Assembly: GCA_903918375.1 (NCBI GenBank)
Contig: CAIXED010000001.1
Location: 1 to 64,000 of the forward strand
DNA from: an uncultured Pseudomonadota bacterium
Lineage (GTDB): Bacteria > Pseudomonadota > Gammaproteobacteria > Methylococcales > Methylomonadaceae
Reading direction: 5' to 3'
DNA: 64,000 nt
Positions 44,317 to 54,370 of this stretch are shown in pieces. The translations under genes and the position numbers were made by a program. Each line of letters begins with the position of its first letter. The stretch's first letter is position 1. The notes below the pieces were generated by a model. That model had not been told where the DNA came from, did no database searches, and saw only the letters and a list, made by a program, of their open reading frames with translations.

Positions 44317-45219
44317 TCAATTAATATGCCGCCACTGCAGCGCCTTATTATGAAAATCATCAAAATCAGCGATTAACTCGCAATTACTCGGCACCATCGG
44401 TTTTTGGCTCAACCAACACGAAACCCCGCGCCCCGCTAACCAAATCGACACCTCAGTCTGACTTAACGCTTCCATCACCGCATTTAACTGAACCATCGTT
44501 TCTGGATCAGACGGTGACTTTAACAAGCTCAGCACCACAATATTCACTTCGAGCTTTTTAGTCGCTTCAACAATATCAAACGCGGGAACATCAGCCCCTA
44601 AGTAATAACAGTTGTACTGTTGTTCGGCGGCTAATAAAGATGACATCAACAAACCAAACTCGTGCGGCTCACCGCTTGGCGTAGCGAACAGCATACTGGC
44701 GCGATTGGCGGATAAATTGTGGACGTTGTTAACCATGCTTAACAGAATCCGTTTCACACTGGCCGAAAAAATATGCTCTTGAGCAATATTAATCTTACCT
44801 TCATGCCACAACTGGCCGACATGCACCAAAGCCGGCGTCAAAATATCTCTGACATAAATCAGCGGCTCGCTGGAAATCAAAGCGCGCTTTAATAATTGCT
44901 CACAGCGATCAATCCGGTAATGCAACAAAGCCTCAACAATCTGCTCAGAAAATTGATTTTTCTGTTCAACTTGCTGCTCGTCAGCGCCACTGGCTAATTT
45001 TTGTAATTGTTCAATGTCTAAGCCCGACACTTTACTAATCGCATGACCTTGACGCGTCAAGCAGGCCAACAGCGTCAATTTTTCTAAGTCTTGTTGCGAA
45101 TAAGTACGGTGTCCACCCGCCTCACGTCGAGGCGCAATCACTTGGTAGCGACGCTCCCAAGCCCGCAAGGTTTCTACGCCCAAACCTGTCAAAACTGAAA
45201 TTGATTTTATTGAATACAT
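44317..45219 (-). CDS. B12-dependent light-sensing MerR-family regulator (CarH/LitR type)
   Basis: This 300-residue repressor has an N-terminal MerR DNA-binding domain (SIKSISVLTGLGVETLRAWERRY) and a C-terminal cobalamin-binding part. The CarH light-sensor signature W-x9-EH is complete (Trp138, Glu148, His149), and the cobalamin motif E-x-H-x-x-G is at Glu184-His186-Gly189. In CarH proteins adenosylcobalamin drives tetramer binding to DNA in the dark, and light releases it. It diverges from a sigma-factor gene, the usual position for CarH/LitR, and its start codon region carries candidate operator half-sites. A role in light-induced stress gene expression is well supported by the motifs. Confidence 0.9.
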   Translation of the reverse strand: MYSIKSISVLTGLGVETLRAWERRYQVIAPRREAGGHRTYSQQDLEKLTLLACLTRQGHAISKVSGLDIEQLQKLASGADEQQVEQKNQFSEQIVEALLHYRIDRCEQLLKRALISSEPLIYVRDILTPALVHVGQLWHEGKINIAQEHIFSASVKRILLSMVNNVHNLSANRASMLFATPSGEPHEFGLLMSSLLAAEQQYNCYYLGADVPAFDIVEATKKLEVNIVVLSLLKSPSDPETMVQLNAVMEALSQTEVSIWLAGRGVSCWLSQKPMVPSNCELIADFDDFHNKALQWRHIN

Positions 45220-45232
45220 TTTGTTTATGTTT

Positions 45233-45276
45233 TGTACAAATATTTTCTTGACAAAGATTGTACATCAAGATAACTT
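45233..45276 (+). promoter_or_regulatory. Candidate promoter and CarH/LitR operator between carH and the sigma gene
   Basis: TTGACA (45248-45253) is a perfect -35 box, followed after 17 bp by a weak -10 TAACTT (45271-45276). TGTACA hexamers flank it at 45233-45238 and 45259-45264. TTGACA and the second TGTACA share the T-n-n-ACA pattern and start 11 bp apart, as in the direct-repeat operators described for CarH. A further AATACA lies at 45213-45218 over the carH start codon. A regulator bound here would block the promoter. Confidence 0.55.
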
Positions 45277-45311
45277 AACTACCAACCTAATTGATGAACG
45301 GGAATTGAGCC

Positions 45312-46562
45312 ATGGCCTTACGACATCTGAATCCAATAAACGACAACGCTATCCAACTGATGGCTGATCCTTTAATCTCCGCTGCGCCTTGGCTTGAAAT
45401 CGCAGACGAAAGTCTGGAAACCAAAGCGGAACCTGCTGTACAGCCTGTACAGGCACTGGCTGAAGAAATGGAAGTAGCCAGAAAAAAATTACTCCATCTA
45501 TTACTAGAGAAAGATTTCGTCGCCAAATTACTCAGCGAACAACTAATAACAAAAGCTGAAGAAGGCGTTGATTACTCACTGAACAACAGTGACAAAATGG
45601 CACAAGCAAAACCTGTACAAGATTCAAACTTTGTACAGGGTAACACATTAAACCTATTAGATGCAGGTGAAAAGCTCGCCAGCCAACAAGATTACAATTT
45701 GCAACAAGCGCATATTTTTCCGGTGTTCTTGTTAAAAGTCGCTGAGCAAGCTCAAAAGCAATTGGCGCAACCTGAATACACCGACATCGCTTACAGAAGT
45801 CGCTTGATTGCTTACCGAATGAATTTGCAACAAGTCAGACAAAAAATGATTGCCAGCAATACTGGTCTGGTAGCGTTCGTGGCTTGTAAATACAAAACCG
45901 TATCTTTAAGTTTTGAAGACTTAATGCAAGAAGGCAGCATAGGCTTGATCAAAGCCGTTGACCGCTTTGACGCCAGCCGCGGGATTCGCTTTTCGACTTA
46001 TGCGATTTTCTGGATTAAACAAGCGATTTCCAGATTGATCGTCAAACAAGAAAAAGTGGTGCGTTTACCGATTGCCTTAGCGGAAAAATCGTCGGTGGTG
46101 TTTGAAGTGATGCGTAACAGCTATTTAGAACACAATCGCTGGCCGAGCTTGTTAGAAATAAAAGCCCAGTGCGACTTATCAATGGATGACATTAAAACCA
46201 TCAGTAGTTATTATCAGTCCACGCATTCATTGGATTCTGCCCAATCTGATGACGGTGACGATCAAACCTTGATGGCAACTTTGCCACAACATCAATTTGC
46301 TCAACCGCTAAATGAACTAATTGACTCAAATCTAAGCCTATATATAGGTAAGGTTGTCGCCAGTCTTCCAGAAAAAGAAGCGGCTATATTGAATATGCGT
46401 TTTGGCTTGCACAATCATCATGAGATGACTTTACAAGCCATAGCGGATCAACTGCATGTGACCAGAGAACGGGTCAGACAAATACAGAACGATGCTTTAA
46501 AAAAATTAAAACAGCAGTTCGGTTACGACTTGTTGCCGTTTCTTGAGCCAAATCAAGGCTAA
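45312..46562 (+). CDS. Sigma-70-family factor with unusual N-terminus
   Basis: The 416-residue protein contains region 2 (about 174-245: RQKMIASNTGLVAFVACKYK, LSFEDLMQEGSIGLIKAVDRFD, RFSTYAIFWIKQAI), region 3 and region 4 (about 345-405: LPEKEAAILNMRFGLHNHHE, then VTRERVRQIQNDALKKL). This is the RpoD/RpoS-type family, not ECF. The first 165 residues are unlike RpoD region 1 and contain repeated V-Q units (AVQPVQ, PVQ, FVQ) that come from TGTACA sequences in the DNA. GGGA lies 12 nt before the ATG. Divergence from a CarH-type repressor suggests light-dependent expression. Confidence 0.88.
   Translation: MALRHLNPINDNAIQLMADPLISAAPWLEIADESLETKAEPAVQPVQALAEEMEVARKKLLHLLLEKDFVAKLLSEQLITKAEEGVDYSLNNSDKMAQAKPVQDSNFVQGNTLNLLDAGEKLASQQDYNLQQAHIFPVFLLKVAEQAQKQLAQPEYTDIAYRSRLIAYRMNLQQVRQKMIASNTGLVAFVACKYKTVSLSFEDLMQEGSIGLIKAVDRFDASRGIRFSTYAIFWIKQAISRLIVKQEKVVRLPIALAEKSSVVFEVMRNSYLEHNRWPSLLEIKAQCDLSMDDIKTISSYYQSTHSLDSAQSDDGDDQTLMATLPQHQFAQPLNELIDSNLSLYIGKVVASLPEKEAAILNMRFGLHNHHEMTLQAIADQLHVTRERVRQIQNDALKKLKQQFGYDLLPFLEPNQG
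45437..45451 (+). promoter_or_regulatory. Tandem TGTACA hexamers inside the sigma gene
   Basis: TGTACA occurs at 45437-45442 and again at 45446-45451, 9 bp apart. They match the half-sites between carH and the sigma gene and encode the V-Q repeats of the sigma factor's N-terminus. They are candidate internal operators. Confidence 0.4.
45614..45637 (+). promoter_or_regulatory. TGTACA-N12-TGTACA site inside the sigma gene
   Basis: Two TGTACA hexamers (45614-45619 and 45632-45637) are separated by exactly 12 bp. As I recall it, the motif proposed for LitR-type regulators in Pseudomonas is T(G/A)TACA-N12-TGTA(C/T)A, which this matches fully. It lies about 300 bp inside the coding region. It may be a roadblock operator or control an internal promoter. 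Confidence 0.5.
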
Positions 46563-46615: not shown

Positions 46616-47776
46616 ATGTCATCAGAAAAACCTAACACCACCAACCAAACACCGCCACCCGATTGGAAAGCCGAGTTTGATAAACATTGGCATAAAGTCA
46701 GTCAACGCAGCGCGGATTTTTATAACGGTCATAAACAGCTGTTTAAATTATCCAATATCGGCGCGGCATTAGGCGGCGCAGTGGCTTTGACTTGGCTTGC
46801 TAGCGGTGTTTACATCGTTGACGAAGGTAACCGTGGCGTTGTCACTCGCTTTGGTGCTTATAGCGAAACTACCCAACCAGGTCCGCATTGGCATATGCCT
46901 TTGCCGATTGAAAAAGTCAAAATCGTTAACGTTGAACAACAACGTTTTATCGAAGTCGGCTATCGCGACTCTAGCCGCTTTGCCAAAGCCGCAACGATTC
47001 CACAAGAATCTTTGATGCTGACTAGCGACGAAAATATTATTAATGTCCGTTTAGCGGTTCAATACCAAATCAACAACGCTAAAGACTACTTATTTAATGT
47101 TAAAGACAACGAAGCGACCTTAAAACAATTAACCGAAAGCGTTGAACGTGCGGTGATTGGTCGTAACAACATGGACTTCGTATTAACCGAAGGCCGTAGC
47201 GAAATCGTTGCCGAAATCAAACGCGAAATTCAAAGCGCAATGGATGAATACCATGCCGGTGTCACCATCGCCAGCGTCAACTTACAAGATGCTCAGCCAC
47301 CTGAAGAAGTGCAAGGTTCGTTTGAAGATGCAATTCGCGCTCGTGAAGATAAGCAACGTTTAATCAACGAAGCCGAAGCGTATAGCAACGAAATTATTCC
47401 AAAAGCTCGCGGTGCAGCCTCTCGCTTAATGCAAGAAGCGGAAGCCTTTGAAGCAGAAAAAATTGCTAAAGCCAAAGGTGAAACCGAACGCTTTGATCAA
47501 TTGTTGGTGGAATACGAAAAAAGCCCAGCGATTACCCGCAAACGCTTATACCTAGAAGCGAAAGAAAAACTCTACAGCGGCAGCAACAAAATTTTGATCG
47601 AATCCGAACGTAATGCCTCGCAGTTCTACATGCCATTACCAGCCACTAACCAAGCGGCTAACAATGTGGTTAGCAGATCAGTAGCGGAACCTGAATTCAA
47701 CGCTGACAGCGTAGATAAAGGCAACGCTCACAAAGCTAACCTTAGCAGCGACTTACGCCCAAGCCGGAGCAAATAA
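46616..47776 (+). CDS. hflK: FtsH modulator HflK
   Basis: HflK is a single-pass SPFH/band 7 protein that with HflC forms a cage around FtsH in the inner membrane. The 386-residue protein has one transmembrane helix (about 40-62, GAALGGAVALTWLASGVYIV). It is followed by DEGNRGVVTRFGAYSETTQPGPHWH and the SPFH core LTSDENIINVRLAVQYQI. The usual Gly-rich N-terminal stretch is short here and the C-terminal tail is Ser/Asn-rich. AGAGGAG lies upstream of the ATG. It overlaps hflC by one base. Confidence 0.93.
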   Translation: MSSEKPNTTNQTPPPDWKAEFDKHWHKVSQRSADFYNGHKQLFKLSNIGAALGGAVALTWLASGVYIVDEGNRGVVTRFGAYSETTQPGPHWHMPLPIEKVKIVNVEQQRFIEVGYRDSSRFAKAATIPQESLMLTSDENIINVRLAVQYQINNAKDYLFNVKDNEATLKQLTESVERAVIGRNNMDFVLTEGRSEIVAEIKREIQSAMDEYHAGVTIASVNLQDAQPPEEVQGSFEDAIRAREDKQRLINEAEAYSNEIIPKARGAASRLMQEAEAFEAEKIAKAKGETERFDQLLVEYEKSPAITRKRLYLEAKEKLYSGSNKILIESERNASQFYMPLPATNQAANNVVSRSVAEPEFNADSVDKGNAHKANLSSDLRPSRSK

Positions 47777-48645
47777 TGAACATTAGAACTAATACAACTG
47801 TACTCGTACCTGCTGGCATCGGCTTATTAGCGATGGCCTATATGTCGGTTTTTTATGTCAATCAACATGAAAAAGCCATTATGTTTCGTCTAGGTGAAAT
47901 GGTCACCTCCGACTACAAACCAGGTATCCATTTTAAGACCCCCATCATCAATAACGTCAGTACATTTGATGCGCGTGTGCTGACCTTGGACACCAAGTCT
48001 GAGCGTTTTCTTACCTCCGAAAAGAAGAATGTAATTGTTGATTCTTTTGTTAAATGGAGAATCGGTGATGTGGGTCTCTTTTACACCACGGTTGGCGGTG
48101 ATGAATATCAAGCCAATTTACGTCTTGAACAAATCACTAAAGACGCGATGCGCGGTGAGTTTGGTCTAAGAACTATCAAGCAATTGATTTCAGAAGACCG
48201 TACCGAACTACGCCAAACTTTATTGACTAAATTAGCGCCAGTCGCGGCTAAATTTGGTATTGAATTGATTGATATTCGTATCAAACGCATTGATTTACCG
48301 CAAGAAGTCAGTAACTCGGTTTATCAAAGAATGCGTGCTGAACGTGAAAGAGTTGCTCGTGAGTTCCGCTCACAAGGTGCAGAAAGTGCCGAGCAAATCA
48401 GTGCTGAAGCCGACAAACAAAAGCAAGTGATCTTAGCCAACGCCCAACGCGATGCTGAAAACGTCCGTGGTCGTGGTGATGCTCAATCAGCGGAAATTTA
48501 CGCGAAAAGCTATGGTAAAAACCCAGAGTTTTACGCTTTCTACCGCAGTTTGCAGGCTTACCAAACAGCATTTGAGAAAACTCAAGATACTTTGGTGCTA
48601 AAACCAGACTCTGAGTTTTTCAAATACTTTAATAACGAAAAATAA
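47776..48645 (+). CDS. hflC: FtsH modulator HflC
   Basis: HflC is the partner of HflK. The 289-residue protein has an N-terminal membrane anchor (VLVPAGIGLLAMAYMSVFYV), the band 7 core (MVTSDYKPGIHFKTPIINNV, SFVKWRIGDVGLFYTTVGGD), and the C-terminal FYAFYRSLQAYQ, DTLVLKPDSEFFKYF typical of HflC. It is separated from ftsH by about 290 bp that contain a pair of palindromic repeats. Placing hflKC directly upstream of ftsH differs from E. coli, where hflKC lies with hfq-hflX. Confidence 0.94.
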   Translation: MNIRTNTTVLVPAGIGLLAMAYMSVFYVNQHEKAIMFRLGEMVTSDYKPGIHFKTPIINNVSTFDARVLTLDTKSERFLTSEKKNVIVDSFVKWRIGDVGLFYTTVGGDEYQANLRLEQITKDAMRGEFGLRTIKQLISEDRTELRQTLLTKLAPVAAKFGIELIDIRIKRIDLPQEVSNSVYQRMRAERERVAREFRSQGAESAEQISAEADKQKQVILANAQRDAENVRGRGDAQSAEIYAKSYGKNPEFYAFYRSLQAYQTAFEKTQDTLVLKPDSEFFKYFNNEK

Positions 48646-48820: not shown

Positions 48821-48938
48821 CTCAAGTTAGCGACATTGGATAGAACAAAACCGCTTAACTAATGCCGATAAACACGCAGTCTTGAAACACTGAACATAGA
48901 ACACAGCTCCACCTTGCATCTTGGTCGAGGTCATCGTC

Positions 48939-50843
48939 ATGCTAAAACATATAACTCGTATCGTTATTCTCACCGTGATTGGCACGGTCTTGTTTAACTT
49001 CTTCAATCGCAGCACACCGCATTACGATCAAAACTATGCCGTGTCCTATTCCGATTTCATTACCGATATTCGTAACAACGGCATTTCAGAAGTTGTGATC
49101 GATGGTAACAATGTGGAAGGCCGCCGCCAAAATGGCGAACGCTTCACCACCTACAACCCCAACGATCCACGCATGATTGATGAGTTGTTGGAATACGGAG
49201 TAAAAATCAAAGTCGAGCGCCCACAAGTGCCATCGACCATGATGCAAATTCTGATTTCTTGGGCACCAATGTTATTGCTGATTGCTGTGACGATTTTCTT
49301 CATGCGTAAACAGCAAATGGGCAATCAAGGCGGTCAAATGGGCTTTGGTAAAAGTCGCGCTAAATTAATGGCCGAAGACCAAGTGAAAGTCCGTTTCACT
49401 GATGTCGCAGGTGTTGAAGAAGCCAAAGAAGACGTAGTGGAAATGGTCGATTTCCTTCGCGATCCCGGCAAATACGAAGCTTTGGGCGGCAAAATTCCAC
49501 GCGGAGTGTTGATGGTTGGCCCTCCAGGTACAGGTAAAACCTTGTTGGCAAGAGCGATTGCCGGTGAAGCAGGAGTGCCTTTCTTCTCAATCTCGGGTTC
49601 TGATTTCGTCGAAATGTTCGTCGGTGTCGGTGCTTCTAGGGTGAGAGACATGTTCGAGCAAGCCAAAAAACGCGCACCTTGCATCATTTTTATCGACGAA
49701 ATTGACGCGGTCGGTCGTCAACGTGGCGGTAGCGGCATGGGCGGCGGCGGTAACGACGAACGCGAACAAACCTTGAACCAATTATTGGTTGAAATGGACG
49801 GCTTTAGCGGCAACGAAGGCATTATCGTCATCGCTGCGACTAACCGCGCTGATGTACTGGACAAAGCCTTGTTAAGACCGGGTCGTTTCGACCGTCAAGT
49901 GCAAGTTGGCTTGCCAGACATCAAAGGCCGTGAGCAAATTTTGAAAGTTCATGCTGACAAAGTACCGCTGGCTGATGACGTCAACATCAACGACTTGGCG
50001 CGTGGCACCCCAGGTTTTTCCGGTGCAGAATTGGCTAACTTGATTAACGAAGGCGCTTTGTTCGCTGCTCGTAACAAGCAAACCGTTGTCACCATGAATA
50101 ACTTAGATAAAGCCCGCGACAAAATGATTATGGGCGCTGAAAAACGCACTATGGTGATGAGCCGTGATGACTTGTTAATGACCGCTTACCACGAAGCTGG
50201 CCACGCGATTGTTGGCCGTATCGTCCCTGAACATGATCCGGTTTACAAAGTCAGCATCATGCCAAGAGGCGGCGCTTTAGGTATCACCATGTTCTTGCCA
50301 GACCGCGATCAATACAGCGCCAGCAAAGACAAATTGGAAAGCCAAATTGCCAGCTTGTTTGGTGGCCGAGTGGCGGAAGAAATGATTTACGGTAAAAACA
50401 AAGTCACTACCGGTGCTTCAAACGACATTCAAAGAGCCACCCAATTGGCACGTAACATGATCACCAAATGGGGCTTCTCAGAACGTCTAGGCCCGATGGA
50501 TTACGGTGATAGCGAAGGCGGCTACATGGGCGCACAAGCGAAACCGATGTCCGAACAAATGGCGCAATTGATTGATGAAGAAATCCGCAAAATGATTGAT
50601 ATCAATTATGAAAGAGCAACACAGATTTTGACTGACAACATCGAAATCATGCACAACATGGCCCACGCCTTATTGGATTGGGAAACCATTGATAAGTACC
50701 AAATTGATGAGTTGATGGCGGGTAAAAAACTGGCTCCACCAGAACCAGCGCCTGAAATCACCAGCTACGAAGAAACCGCTGAAATTAGCAACACCGAGGA
50801 CGATCAACAGTATGGACAATCAGGACAGTTAGCGATGTCTTGA
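48939..50843 (+). CDS. ftsH: ATP-dependent zinc metalloprotease FtsH
   Basis: FtsH is the inner-membrane AAA protease that degrades membrane proteins and regulators such as sigma-32 and LpxC. I chose the ATG at 48939 with GAGG 8 nt upstream, giving 634 residues. Two transmembrane helices (about 4-22 and 100-122) flank a periplasmic domain. The AAA domain has Walker A GPPGTGKT (194-201, Lys200), Walker [12 protein letters not shown] and the SRH. The protease site HEAGH is at 418-422. All catalytic parts look intact. It follows hflKC, with which it forms a complex. Confidence 0.97.
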
Positions 50844-51570: not shown

Positions 51571-52482
51571 ATGACCACAAAAAATATTCTCATCACTGGC
51601 GGCACCGGCTTTTTAGGCAGCGCCTTGATTGCCGATTGGTTAGCTCAAGGCCATCAAGTCACCGTGATTAGCCGCGATCCACTAGCGGCCATGCAACAAC
51701 TCGGTAATCAAATCAACGCCGTTAGCAGTTTCAACCTGCTTTCGACCAGCGCCCAATTCGACGTGATTGTTAATTTAGCCGGTGCGCCATTGTTTAGCAG
51801 TCGCTGGAGCGAGGCGCGTAAACAGCAAATTCGCGATAGCCGAATTGGTTTAACCCAGCAATTAGTCAGCTTTATTGCCAGCTTGCAACACAAACCCGAA
51901 CTGCTAATTAGCGGCTCAGCGATTGGCATTTACGGCGACCAAGGCGATACGGTTTTAACCGAACAAAGCACTAGCCAAGCCGACTTTGGACAACAATTGT
52001 GCAGCGATTGGGAACAAGCCGCCTTACAAGCCGAAAGCTTGGGCGTCAGAGTGTGTTTAATTCGCACCGGCTTGGTTTTAGGCAACCATGGCGGCTTATT
52101 ACAGCGCATGTTACCGGCCTTTAAATTGGGTTTAGGTGGTTGTTTAGGCAATGGTCAACAATGGATGTCTTGGATACATTTGAGCGATTGGTTAGCCATC
52201 CTCAACACCTTTATCGACCATCCCGAACTAAGTGGCGCATTTAACGCCACCGCCCCCAATCCGGTCAGCAATCAAAGTTTTAGCCAACAACTCGCCAAAC
52301 AACTACACAGGCCGGCTTTATTACCTGTGCCGAGTTTTGTGCTAAAACCACTTTTAGGCGAAATGTCGGAGCTGATTTTAGGGAGCCAGCGGGTAATGCC
52401 TGAGCGCTTACTGGCGGCGGGTTTTAAATTTCAATACCCAGATTTAGCCCCAGCCTTACAGCAAATTCTCAATCGGCATTAA
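51571..52482 (+). CDS. TIGR01777 family epimerase (SDR fold, YfcH-like)
   Basis: The 303-residue protein is an extended short-chain dehydrogenase with the nucleotide-binding loop ILITGGTGFLGSAL. It continues with VNLAGAPLFSSRWSEARKQQ, SGSAIGIYGDQGD and a C-terminal DUF1731-like region (LLGEMSELILGSQRVMPERLLAAGF). Substrates of this family are unknown. Its stop overlaps the photolyase start (TAATG), and homologues are commonly found among light-induced genes with phr and lipocalin. A link to the CarH regulator upstream is therefore plausible. Confidence 0.9.
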   Translation: MTTKNILITGGTGFLGSALIADWLAQGHQVTVISRDPLAAMQQLGNQINAVSSFNLLSTSAQFDVIVNLAGAPLFSSRWSEARKQQIRDSRIGLTQQLVSFIASLQHKPELLISGSAIGIYGDQGDTVLTEQSTSQADFGQQLCSDWEQAALQAESLGVRVCLIRTGLVLGNHGGLLQRMLPAFKLGLGGCLGNGQQWMSWIHLSDWLAILNTFIDHPELSGAFNATAPNPVSNQSFSQQLAKQLHRPALLPVPSFVLKPLLGEMSELILGSQRVMPERLLAAGFKFQYPDLAPALQQILNRH

Positions 52483-53858
52483 TGAAGCGTTTCGATACCT
52501 CGCTATTTATTTTTCGTCGGGATTTACGTTTAGATGACAACACCGCGCTCAATGCCGCTTTGTCACAATCGAAACAGGTTTTAGCGGCGTTTATCTTTGA
52601 CCCGCAACAAATCCAGGCTCATCCCTATCAAAGCCAAGCTGGTTTGCAATTTATGCTGCAAGCCTTGGCGGATTTACAGCAACAATTCGCCGAACACAAC
52701 GGCAAGCTGTATCTATTTCATGGCAAACCGAGCGAGCTGATTAGCCAATTAAATGCCGAACATAAACTTGATGCGCTGTTTGTTAATCGCGATTACACGC
52801 CATTCAGCCGCCAACGCGATGCCGACTTGTATCAGCATTGCCAACAACTCGGCTTAGCGTTTCACAGCCATAACGATCTGTTACTGAATCAACCGGAACA
52901 GCTGATTAAAGCCAATGGCTCACCCTATCAAGTGTTTACGCCGTTTTATAACCGCGCCAAACAAAACCCCGTCGCTTTGCCAACTGGCTTAGCGAATGGT
53001 CAGTTTTTCAGAGCTAATTCGCAATACGATCAGCCACAATTACTTGAACAACTCAAAGCCGCGCATAACAATCCTTTTCAAGGTGGCCGACAACAGGCCT
53101 TGGCAATCCTCAACGATTTACAGCATTGCCAAAACTATGCCGAGCAACGCGACTTCCCTGCTCTGGATGCGACCAGTAATCTCTCAGCCCATCTTAAATT
53201 TGGGTGCTGTTCGGTGCGGGAAGCGTTTTATGCGGTGTTACACAATTTAGGCAGCGAACACCCGCTGATTCGACAATTTTACTGGCGAGATTTTTTCAGC
53301 CACATTGCCTTTCATTACCCGCAAGTGTTTGGTCACGCTTTTCACAGTCGTTACGATGCGATTAATTGGAGCAAAGACCAAGATCGTTTCTGGGCTTGGG
53401 CCAACGGCAAAACCGGTTTTCCAATCGTCGATGCCGGCATGCGGCAGTTAAATCAAACTGGTTGTATGCACAATCGTTTGCGGATGATTACCGCCTCGTT
53501 TTTAGTCAAAGATTTGCACATTAGTTGGCGCTGGGGCGAACGCTATTTTGCCCAGAAACTGATTGATTACGACCCCTGTTTAAACAACGGCAATTGGCAA
53601 TGGGCTGCCTCAACCGGCTGCGATGCCCAACCCTATTTTCGGATTTTTAACCCTTGGCTCCAGCAACAAAAATTTGACCCCGACTGTTTGTACATCAAAC
53701 GCTGGCTACCAGAATTACAAGGCTTTAGCCCCAAAACGATTCACAACTGGCAAAATAGCCCATTAGCTGGCGATTACCCACCGCCCATGGTCGATCACAG
53801 CCAACAAAGCCAAGCCATTAAAGCCATTTTCAAAGCACTCAACTTAGGAGCCGATTGA
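52482..53858 (+). CDS. phrB: Deoxyribodipyrimidine photo-lyase
   Basis: The enzyme repairs UV-induced cyclobutane pyrimidine dimers using blue light. The 458-residue protein has the N-terminal antenna domain (LFIFRRDLRLDDNTAL) and the FAD-binding helical domain. The FAD-domain motifs are FYWRDFFSHIAFHYP, WANGKTGFPIVDAGMRQL, HNRLRMITASFLVKDLHI and DYDPCLNNGNWQWAASTG. These fit a class I photolyase rather than a cryptochrome. It overlaps genes on both sides by one base, so epimerase, photolyase and lipocalin form one translationally coupled set. Confidence 0.95.
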   Translation: MKRFDTSLFIFRRDLRLDDNTALNAALSQSKQVLAAFIFDPQQIQAHPYQSQAGLQFMLQALADLQQQFAEHNGKLYLFHGKPSELISQLNAEHKLDALFVNRDYTPFSRQRDADLYQHCQQLGLAFHSHNDLLLNQPEQLIKANGSPYQVFTPFYNRAKQNPVALPTGLANGQFFRANSQYDQPQLLEQLKAAHNNPFQGGRQQALAILNDLQHCQNYAEQRDFPALDATSNLSAHLKFGCCSVREAFYAVLHNLGSEHPLIRQFYWRDFFSHIAFHYPQVFGHAFHSRYDAINWSKDQDRFWAWANGKTGFPIVDAGMRQLNQTGCMHNRLRMITASFLVKDLHISWRWGERYFAQKLIDYDPCLNNGNWQWAASTGCDAQPYFRIFNPWLQQQKFDPDCLYIKRWLPELQGFSPKTIHNWQNSPLAGDYPPPMVDHSQQSQAIKAIFKALNLGAD

Positions 53859-54370
53859 TGCGATTTATCTTAATTTTGATCTGTAGTTTATTGACCGCCT
53901 GCACTGGCATTCCCGAAGGTGTGAAAGTCGTCGATGGTTTTGAACTCAACCGTTATTTAGGCACTTGGTACGAAATCGCCCGTTTAGACCACAGCTTTGA
54001 ACGCGGCCTAAGCGACATTCGCGCCGAATACAGCCTCAATCCTGACGGCACAGTTAAAGTATTGAATACCGGTTTTGACAGCGAACAAAGCGAACGCCAA
54101 ACCGCGATTGGCCAAGCGCATTTTGTCGGCAATCAAGATATTGGCAGCTTAGAAGTCTCGTTTTTCGGCCCATTTTATGGCGCTTACAACATCATCGCTT
54201 TAGACAAAAAAACTTACCGCTACGCAATGATTGCAGGGCCTAATCGCGATTATTTATGGATTTTGGCTCGCACGCCAAACTTGGATAAAGCCACTTTGCA
54301 AGACTTAGTCGCACAAGCAGCAGAATTGGGTTTTGCGACTGAGCAGTTGATTTATGATCGGCATCCATAA
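53858..54370 (+). CDS. blc: Outer-membrane lipoprotein lipocalin (Blc-like)
   Basis: Blc-type lipocalins bind fatty acids or lysophospholipids at the outer membrane during stress. The ATG at 53858 overlaps the photolyase stop and has TAGGAG 8 nt upstream. The 170-residue protein has a lipoprotein signal with lipobox LLTAC and the lipocalin signature LNRYLGTWYEIARLD. FFGPFYGAYNIIALD and YLWILARTP follow. Lipocalin genes of this kind sit next to photolyase genes in several light-responsive bacteria. Confidence 0.93.
   Translation: MRFILILICSLLTACTGIPEGVKVVDGFELNRYLGTWYEIARLDHSFERGLSDIRAEYSLNPDGTVKVLNTGFDSEQSERQTAIGQAHFVGNQDIGSLEVSFFGPFYGAYNIIALDKKTYRYAMIAGPNRDYLWILARTPNLDKATLQDLVAQAAELGFATEQLIYDRHP

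Follow-up and report, generated by a model that had tools for sequence, protein, structure and literature searches.

A Candidate Intragenic Operator of a Predicted B12-Type Photoreceptor Repressor Within a Sigma-Factor Gene of Methanotrophs

Genes and Sites at the Locus

In the 64,000-nucleotide stretch of DNA analyzed here (the window), a sigma-70-family gene lies divergent from a gene for a MerR-type repressor with B12-binding domains and heads a sigma-hflK-hflC-ftsH order that is conserved among relatives (Table 1). The sigma protein reached no NCBIfam equivalog. Three genes of the window genome score over the FtsH family cut-off (C65, C1, and C71), and thus the copy at this locus may be a special-purpose one, perhaps linked to light. 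In five related loci (L071, L082, L090, L094, and L095), the interval from the sigma gene to ftsH yielded no hflK and little or none of hflC, and the pair of half-sites described below is kept. Further downstream, at 51571-54370, lie an epimerase-type gene, a photolyase gene and a lipocalin-like open frame, which are genes that pair with light-response genes elsewhere; a relative of the lipocalin-like frame adjoins the repressor gene in locus L098.

Table 1. Coordinates of genes and sites at the sigma locus of the window.
Feature	Position	Strand	Basis
MerR-type repressor gene with B12-binding domains, CarH/LitR-like	44317..45219	-	Pfam, structure match, signature residues
Outer half-site of the promoter operator, TGTACA; most relatives have TGTAYA	45233..45238	.	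Promoter alignment, genus pattern search
TTGACA, -35 box of the sigma gene, also fits the CarH repeat TnnACA	45248..45253	+	Promoter alignment, published repeat
Inner half-site of the promoter operator, TGTACA; most relatives have TNTACA	45259..45264	.	Lies in the -35/-10 spacer
Putative -10 box TAACTT, 17 bp after TTGACA	45271..45276	+	By eye; weak consensus match
Sigma-70-family gene	45312..46562	+	Pfam Sigma70_r2 and Sigma70_r4 over cut-off
Extra TGTACA	45437..45442	.	Window genome and nearest relative (L018/L060) only
Extra TGTACA	45446..45451	.	Window genome and nearest relative (L018/L060) only
Candidate intragenic operator TGTACA-N12-TGTACA, encodes V-Q-x4-V-Q	45614..45637	.	Conservation, motif as PmlR2/PplR1
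hflK-type SPFH gene, next in operon	46616..47776	+	TIGR01933 over cut-off, conserved gene order
hflC-type SPFH gene	47776..48645	+	TIGR01932 over cut-off, conserved gene order
ftsH-type protease gene	48921..50843	+	TIGR01241 over cut-off, conserved gene order

The repressor joins a MerR-type DNA-binding domain to a B12-binding domain, with MerR_1 (PF13411, 49 bits, cut-off 21.6) and B12-binding_2 (PF02607, 52.3 bits, cut-off 23) over their cut-offs and B12-binding (PF02310, 28.8 bits) just under its cut-off of 32.1. Its nearest solved structure is CarH of Thermus thermophilus (5c8d, E 3.4e-27), and the residues G135/W138, E148/H149, G183/H186, and G208/P212, invariant in 13 homologues, correspond to the GxxW, EH, GxxH, and GxxxP signature of light response in B12 photoreceptors (PMC11796333; here and below, statements on cited papers apply to those parts of them that were available to us). 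Because it scores 129.9 bits against the NCBIfam CarH equivalog, far under the cut-off of 400, we term it CarH/LitR-type and not CarH. Class II LitR proteins are not known to carry the usual B12-binding motif; the repressor carries the B12 light signature and was not filed as class II, even with a PplR1-like site at the locus. The class II LitR repressors PplR1 and PmlR2 of Pseudomonas answer to a LOV protein (PMC9758184), whereas the window repressor carries the B12 signature. One genome of the genus sample (G018) holds two copies of the repressor gene, C34 (L058) and C67 (L052); no sigma frame was found beside one of them, and a half-decayed intragenic pair lies beside the other.

Six Hexamers, Two Predicted Operators

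A search of the 64-kb window located TGTACA six times within 405 bp, at 45233, 45259, 45437, 45446, 45614, and 45632, exactly where the sequence-only reading that preceded this analysis had put them, and the excess over chance claimed there holds against both shuffles and synonymous resampling. The whole window holds 16 copies against 11.25 expected from shuffles, and the genome-wide count that the reading proposed as a check gave 279 in 2,785,980 bp, or about 0.04 expected per 405 bp. Three was the maximum per 405-bp stretch in dinucleotide-preserving shuffles of the window, reached in 4 of 300, and the sigma gene with its synonymous codons resampled held a mean of 0.42 hexamers, with four or more in one of 20,000 runs. 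Pairs of the form TGTACA-N{3,30}-TGTACA occur at three places in the genome, all of them in the sigma locus, against one for the reversed-pattern control. As the reading had also said, all four coding hexamers encode V-Q units, in the frame ..T GTA CA.

The six hexamers cannot be treated as one set, as they had been. Four are conserved parts of two predicted operators, one at the promoter and one inside the gene, and the other two, at 45437 and 45446, are lineage-specific, being absent from the sister species examined and present only in the window genome and a 97%-identical relative; as they are limited to these two and separated by N3, they were dropped as part of an operator. Extra hexamers in the sigma genes number nine over 26 lineages, two of them contributed by L060, which is nearly identical to the window; synonymous permutation gave a mean of 3.4 and reached nine in one of 1000 runs (39 rows merged at 85% to 26; L098, L101, and L089 left out); sporadic extra half-sites may therefore matter.

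At the promoter, the inner half-site begins 11 bp after the start of TTGACA, an offset that the reading had pointed out and that equals the published spacing of CarH direct repeats, with TTGACA itself fitting their TnnACA pattern (PMC9304148). Two such repeats stand 11 bp apart here, and the outer half-site is 15 bp off. The aligned promoters of relatives give the consensus TGTAYA-N9-TTGACA-N5-TNTACA, which at up to three mismatches matches 34 of the 37 genus genomes and none in the control, once in 31 genomes and twice in each of G018, G032, and G035. The three genomes with no match are G022 and G033, both without the repressor, and G021, whose promoter has one extra base before TTTGACA. Lying over the -35 box and the spacer, the promoter operator is placed as suits a repressor. 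The TAACTT candidate for the -10 box is missing from the list of a computational promoter scan. In G032 a second promoter-type operator with two mismatches (C1:2837531-2837565) hints that the repressor may have a further target there.

Conservation of the Intragenic Pair

The hexamers at 45614 and 45632 are separated by exactly N12 and correspond to sigma residues 102-109. Likened to the LitR motif in the sequence-only reading, the pair does share its pattern with the published class II LitR sites of PmlR2/PplR1, which have the consensus T(G/A)TACA-N12-TGTA(C/T)A and of which the PmlR2 site was footprinted (PMC9758184); it matches this consensus with no mismatch and is the sole such place in the window genome. 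Within one mismatch, TRTACA-N12-TGTAYA is found at 14 places against 6 for the control, so that weaker sites may exist elsewhere in this genome.

In the genus sample, the exact pair was found in 32 of the 37 genomes, one in each, against 2 of 37 for the reversed-pattern control. Of these, 31 fall inside the sigma gene that adjoins the repressor gene. The remaining one sits in a kinase gene on another contig of G018, where it encodes a kinase motif, and was judged a chance match. Counted over the 35 Methylomonas-group genomes that have the repressor, the pair at the sigma gene is exact in 31, near-exact in three (G008, G017, and G029, 10-11/12 at the same place), and reduced to 8/12 in G018. 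For G022 and G033, which are without the repressor, the best repressor hits (E 5.5e-7 and 4.0e-6) lie in much longer open frames, G033 being an 81% complete genome.

The second sample consists of named records found with the repressor alignment, namely the best 80 of 163 relatives; as it shares genomes with the genus sample, the two counts must not be added. Among these best 80, the 42 nearer loci (L060-L101) have a recognized sigma gene in 41 and a pair matching at least 11 of 12 positions in 39, exact in 35. The 39 come from Methylomonas, Methylobacter, Methylomicrobium, Methylotuvimicrobium, Methylicorpusculum, and Methyloprofundus, and also include metagenome-assembled genomes whose names stop at family level or above. 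The other 38 of the best 80 (33-43% identity), in which no such sigma gene was found, are all without the pair. These distant loci (L102-L139) often show TGTACA 26-92 bp upstream of the repressor start, several of them as TGTACA-N9-TGTACA, which repeats the 15-bp step of the window's promoter operator. The comparison of orthologous sigma genes, another check proposed with the sequence-only reading, found the N12 pair kept in most loci and the hexamers at 45437 and 45446 only in the nearest relative.

In a family sample of 161 genomes, a close repressor (E <= 9.2e-78) is present in 36; in 28 of them the exact pair lies 240-602 bp upstream of the repressor start (counted by hand). The remaining eight are six genomes of the genus group g21 plus G008 and G017; in the one g21 locus looked at (L170) the pair is 11/12. 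Where a close repressor is lacking, the exact pair occurs somewhere in 13 of 125 genomes, and the control pattern occurs in 4 of 161. Five such genomes (G072, G082, G177, G189, and G199) carry exact N12 pairs with extended TGTACAC..GTGTACA arms, which are perhaps sites of another regulator.

Three single cases, some from draft genomes, separate the parts of the locus. G022 lacks the repressor and has the sigma gene (60% identity); TGTACA is absent from its 4-kb stretch, and the position of the first half-site reads GGTACA. In L098 the repressor, promoter operator and hflKC-ftsH are all retained, and the pair lies in a 104-codon open frame without sigma domains; sigma hits in that genome do not exceed 34% identity. 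The pair thus goes with the repressor in these two cases, rather than with the sigma protein. L101, which has both the repressor and the sigma gene, shows no hflKC-ftsH within 5 kb and no pair (8/12); together with the 8/12 pair of G018 and the off-pattern pair of L055, it is a counter-case to the coupling of pair and repressor.

Selection at the Level of Codons

The sequence-only reading had suggested that a DNA site may shape the coding sequence, and codon-level conservation bears this out strongly. The pair is read in the frame NNT GTA CAR. Its Val codons are GTA in 47 of 48 cases, whereas in the rest of these genes 115 of 759 are (33 rows, 25 distinct, with the incomplete gene of L018 as well as L052 and L054 left out), and the codon preceding each half-site ends in T in 49 of 50 against a background of 0.207, while encoding V, P, I, A, L, F, or S. 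We note that for the genus positions, codon counts, distances, codon alignments, departures and extra hexamers, the pair was located by searching the 5' part of each gene for its best N12 match, which favours the hexamer letters, and that the distance, codon-alignment, departure and extra-hexamer analyses draw on overlapping sets of genomes. The ranking of codon constancy is free of this bias, since it uses the protein alignment only. Over 21 lineages (33 rows merged at 90% or higher identity, again without L018, L052, and L054), the two Val columns of the pair rank first and second of 93 conserved columns, that is, columns with V, A, P, T, G, L, R, or S in at least 80% of lineages, and the columns preceding them are two of only three variable columns, among 180, whose third base is at least 90% constant.

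Where half-sites depart from the consensus, as TATACA, TTTACA, or TGCACA, TnnACA is kept though the protein is altered, and the silent position is nearly fixed (45 distinct sites; L018, L052, L054, L089, and L101 left out). L055, with TGTGCA and CGTACA, is the exception, being broken in both halves. In 12 genes of the Methylobacter group, third-base T persists for several codons past the pair, with a possible third half-site 15 bp on (codon alignments without L098, L060, L101, and L089). Selection thus acts on the DNA at the pair; the site seems to have dictated the codons, and its retention probably dictates the amino acids there as well. In the protein, the pair falls in a low-confidence AlphaFold linker (residues 92-127, pLDDT < 50), probably disordered, that joins the helical N-terminal part to the sigma core. 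Only local disorder was used from this model, as its mean pLDDT is 68.4.

A Second Operator for Dark Repression?

We propose that the divergent B12-type repressor has two operators, one in the sigma promoter (45233-45264) and one within the coding part of the sigma gene (45614-45637). Repressor carrying AdoB12, as a tetramer if it resembles CarH, for which tetramers are known (PMC8156234), would bind at both in the dark. Its presence at the intragenic site would tighten repression of the sigma-hflK-hflC-ftsH operon; the likeliest route is a bridge to the promoter operator, about 375 bp away, and the alternative is a block to elongating RNA polymerase. Light would release the repressor from both operators. 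Selection for the DNA site would meanwhile fix GTA codons and third-base T in the linker, and so impose V-Q-x4-V-Q on the protein. As a whole, this reading, in which a CarH/LitR-type B12 photoreceptor uses the pair as an auxiliary operator within the sigma gene to reinforce dark repression, has in our estimate a probability of roughly 0.7. Judging from the comparative sequence data, the intragenic site is very likely bound by the divergent repressor, and a contribution to repression is likely.

How the second site would act is a matter on which we lean, with low confidence in the choice, toward bridging. The same half-sites stand at promoter and pair, 218-586 bp apart, which are distances suited to looping. 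The pair has its own N12 geometry, different from the 15+11 bp of the promoter operator. Helical phasing, sought as evidence for looping, was not found among 26 distinct distances of 218-586 bp from 40 loci (R 0.11 at 10.5 bp, p 0.72; L089 and L101 left out), which speaks against a stiff loop, although at such lengths a loop need not show phasing. We would tentatively go one step further and picture a bridge dissolved by light, in which a B12-photoreceptor tetramer ties the promoter to the intragenic operator and V-Q-x4-V-Q has been imposed across several methanotroph genera, a picture that deserves a little more reserve than bridging itself.

The strongest competitor, in itself rather unlikely, is a roadblock only, where repressor on the pair halts RNA polymerase that has escaped the promoter operator and the two sites never touch. 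The pair lies within the transcribed region as such an operator should, its distance from the promoter varies widely without phasing, and bound repressors are documented as roadblocks (PMC4132739, PMC10310618); many DNA-binding proteins, however, are described as poor ones (PMC10310618). A site in the untranslated leader would moreover spare the protein, yet the pair is never closer than 218 bp to the promoter in the 40 loci, which argues against a pure roadblock.

Control by the pair of an internal sigma-gene promoter, serving hflKC-ftsH or a short form of sigma, is improbable. This would suit L098, with its pair, hflKC-ftsH and no sigma gene seen, and L101, where both hflKC-ftsH within 5 kb and the pair are lacking, but the promoter scan gives no promoter-like site at the pair (two in the region against 2.6 expected), and codon alignments of two other groups show by eye no conserved -10-like hexamer near it. 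A role in storage, in which the pair would only keep repressor close to the repressor gene or adjust its amount and leave the sigma transcript unaffected, seems more doubtful again: genus genomes with the pair almost always have no other exact N12 site, but a decoy has no need to stay in a transcribed operon beside a promoter operator across genera, as is observed.

That V-Q-x4-V-Q is kept for sigma function, the hexamers merely following, is very improbable. The V102 and Q109 columns are nearly invariant in 19 sigma proteins, but codon usage at the pair is held much more tightly than background, the codons just before it differ in amino acid and share their third base, the pair of L098 persists in a frame without sigma domains, and the stretch is predicted to be disordered. 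Least probable of all is a hairpin acting in the mRNA, for which the two hexamers could pair, since every departure among the 45 distinct sites is one-sided and unpaired with no compensatory change, the N12 loop being constant in a set chosen as N12 matches.

Comparison With Known Systems

Intragenic operators are already known, as are the promoter operators of CarH and LitR. The lac operator O2, which lies within lacZ at about 400 bp from the main operator and serves the same repressor as an auxiliary site, resembles the arrangement proposed here; it differs in the repressor family, in having nothing to do with light, and in that the window locus shows no phasing. The intragenic operator of purB in E. 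coli, where PurR reportedly acts as a roadblock without a partner at the promoter, is likewise a repressor site within a coding sequence and is not light-related.

Among light regulators, PmlR2/PplR1 offers the closest site, TGTACA-N12-TGTACA, with two sites per promoter region. The first covers the -35 box; the second follows the transcription start and lies in the leader, before the start codon (PMC9758184), whereas the second site of the window locus is inside the coding sequence. The CarH proteins of T. thermophilus, Bacillus megaterium and myxobacteria share the union of MerR and B12-binding domains and the TnnACA repeats 11 bp apart, one of which holds the -35 box, but their known operators consist of three to four tandem 11-bp repeats at the promoter, in contrast to steps of 15+11 bp in the promoter operator and of 18 bp within the gene here, and their targets are carotenoid genes in place of a sigma-hflKC-ftsH operon (PMC9304148, PMC8156234). 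In the literature searched, which covered few subscription journals and some papers in part, we found neither an intragenic CarH/LitR operator or this sigma locus in methanotrophs, nor an intragenic B12-photoreceptor operator kept across genera with codon constraint.

Implications

Many intragenic transcription-factor sites look inert and unconserved; those of PhoB in E. coli are reported to be mostly so (PMC10294691), whereas the window pair is conserved across genera with constraint on its codons. The pair thus offers a clear comparative case of an intragenic site under selection, cross-genus and nearly unique, with codons held against background, gone in one genome without the repressor and kept in one without the surrounding sigma gene. 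It also provides a ready test system for intragenic repression, for the constraint that a DNA site can place on protein evolution, and for a B12 light sensor that would repress at a distance. For the organisms themselves, the arrangement suggests that these methanotrophs put a sigma factor and the HflKC-FtsH protease under the control of light.
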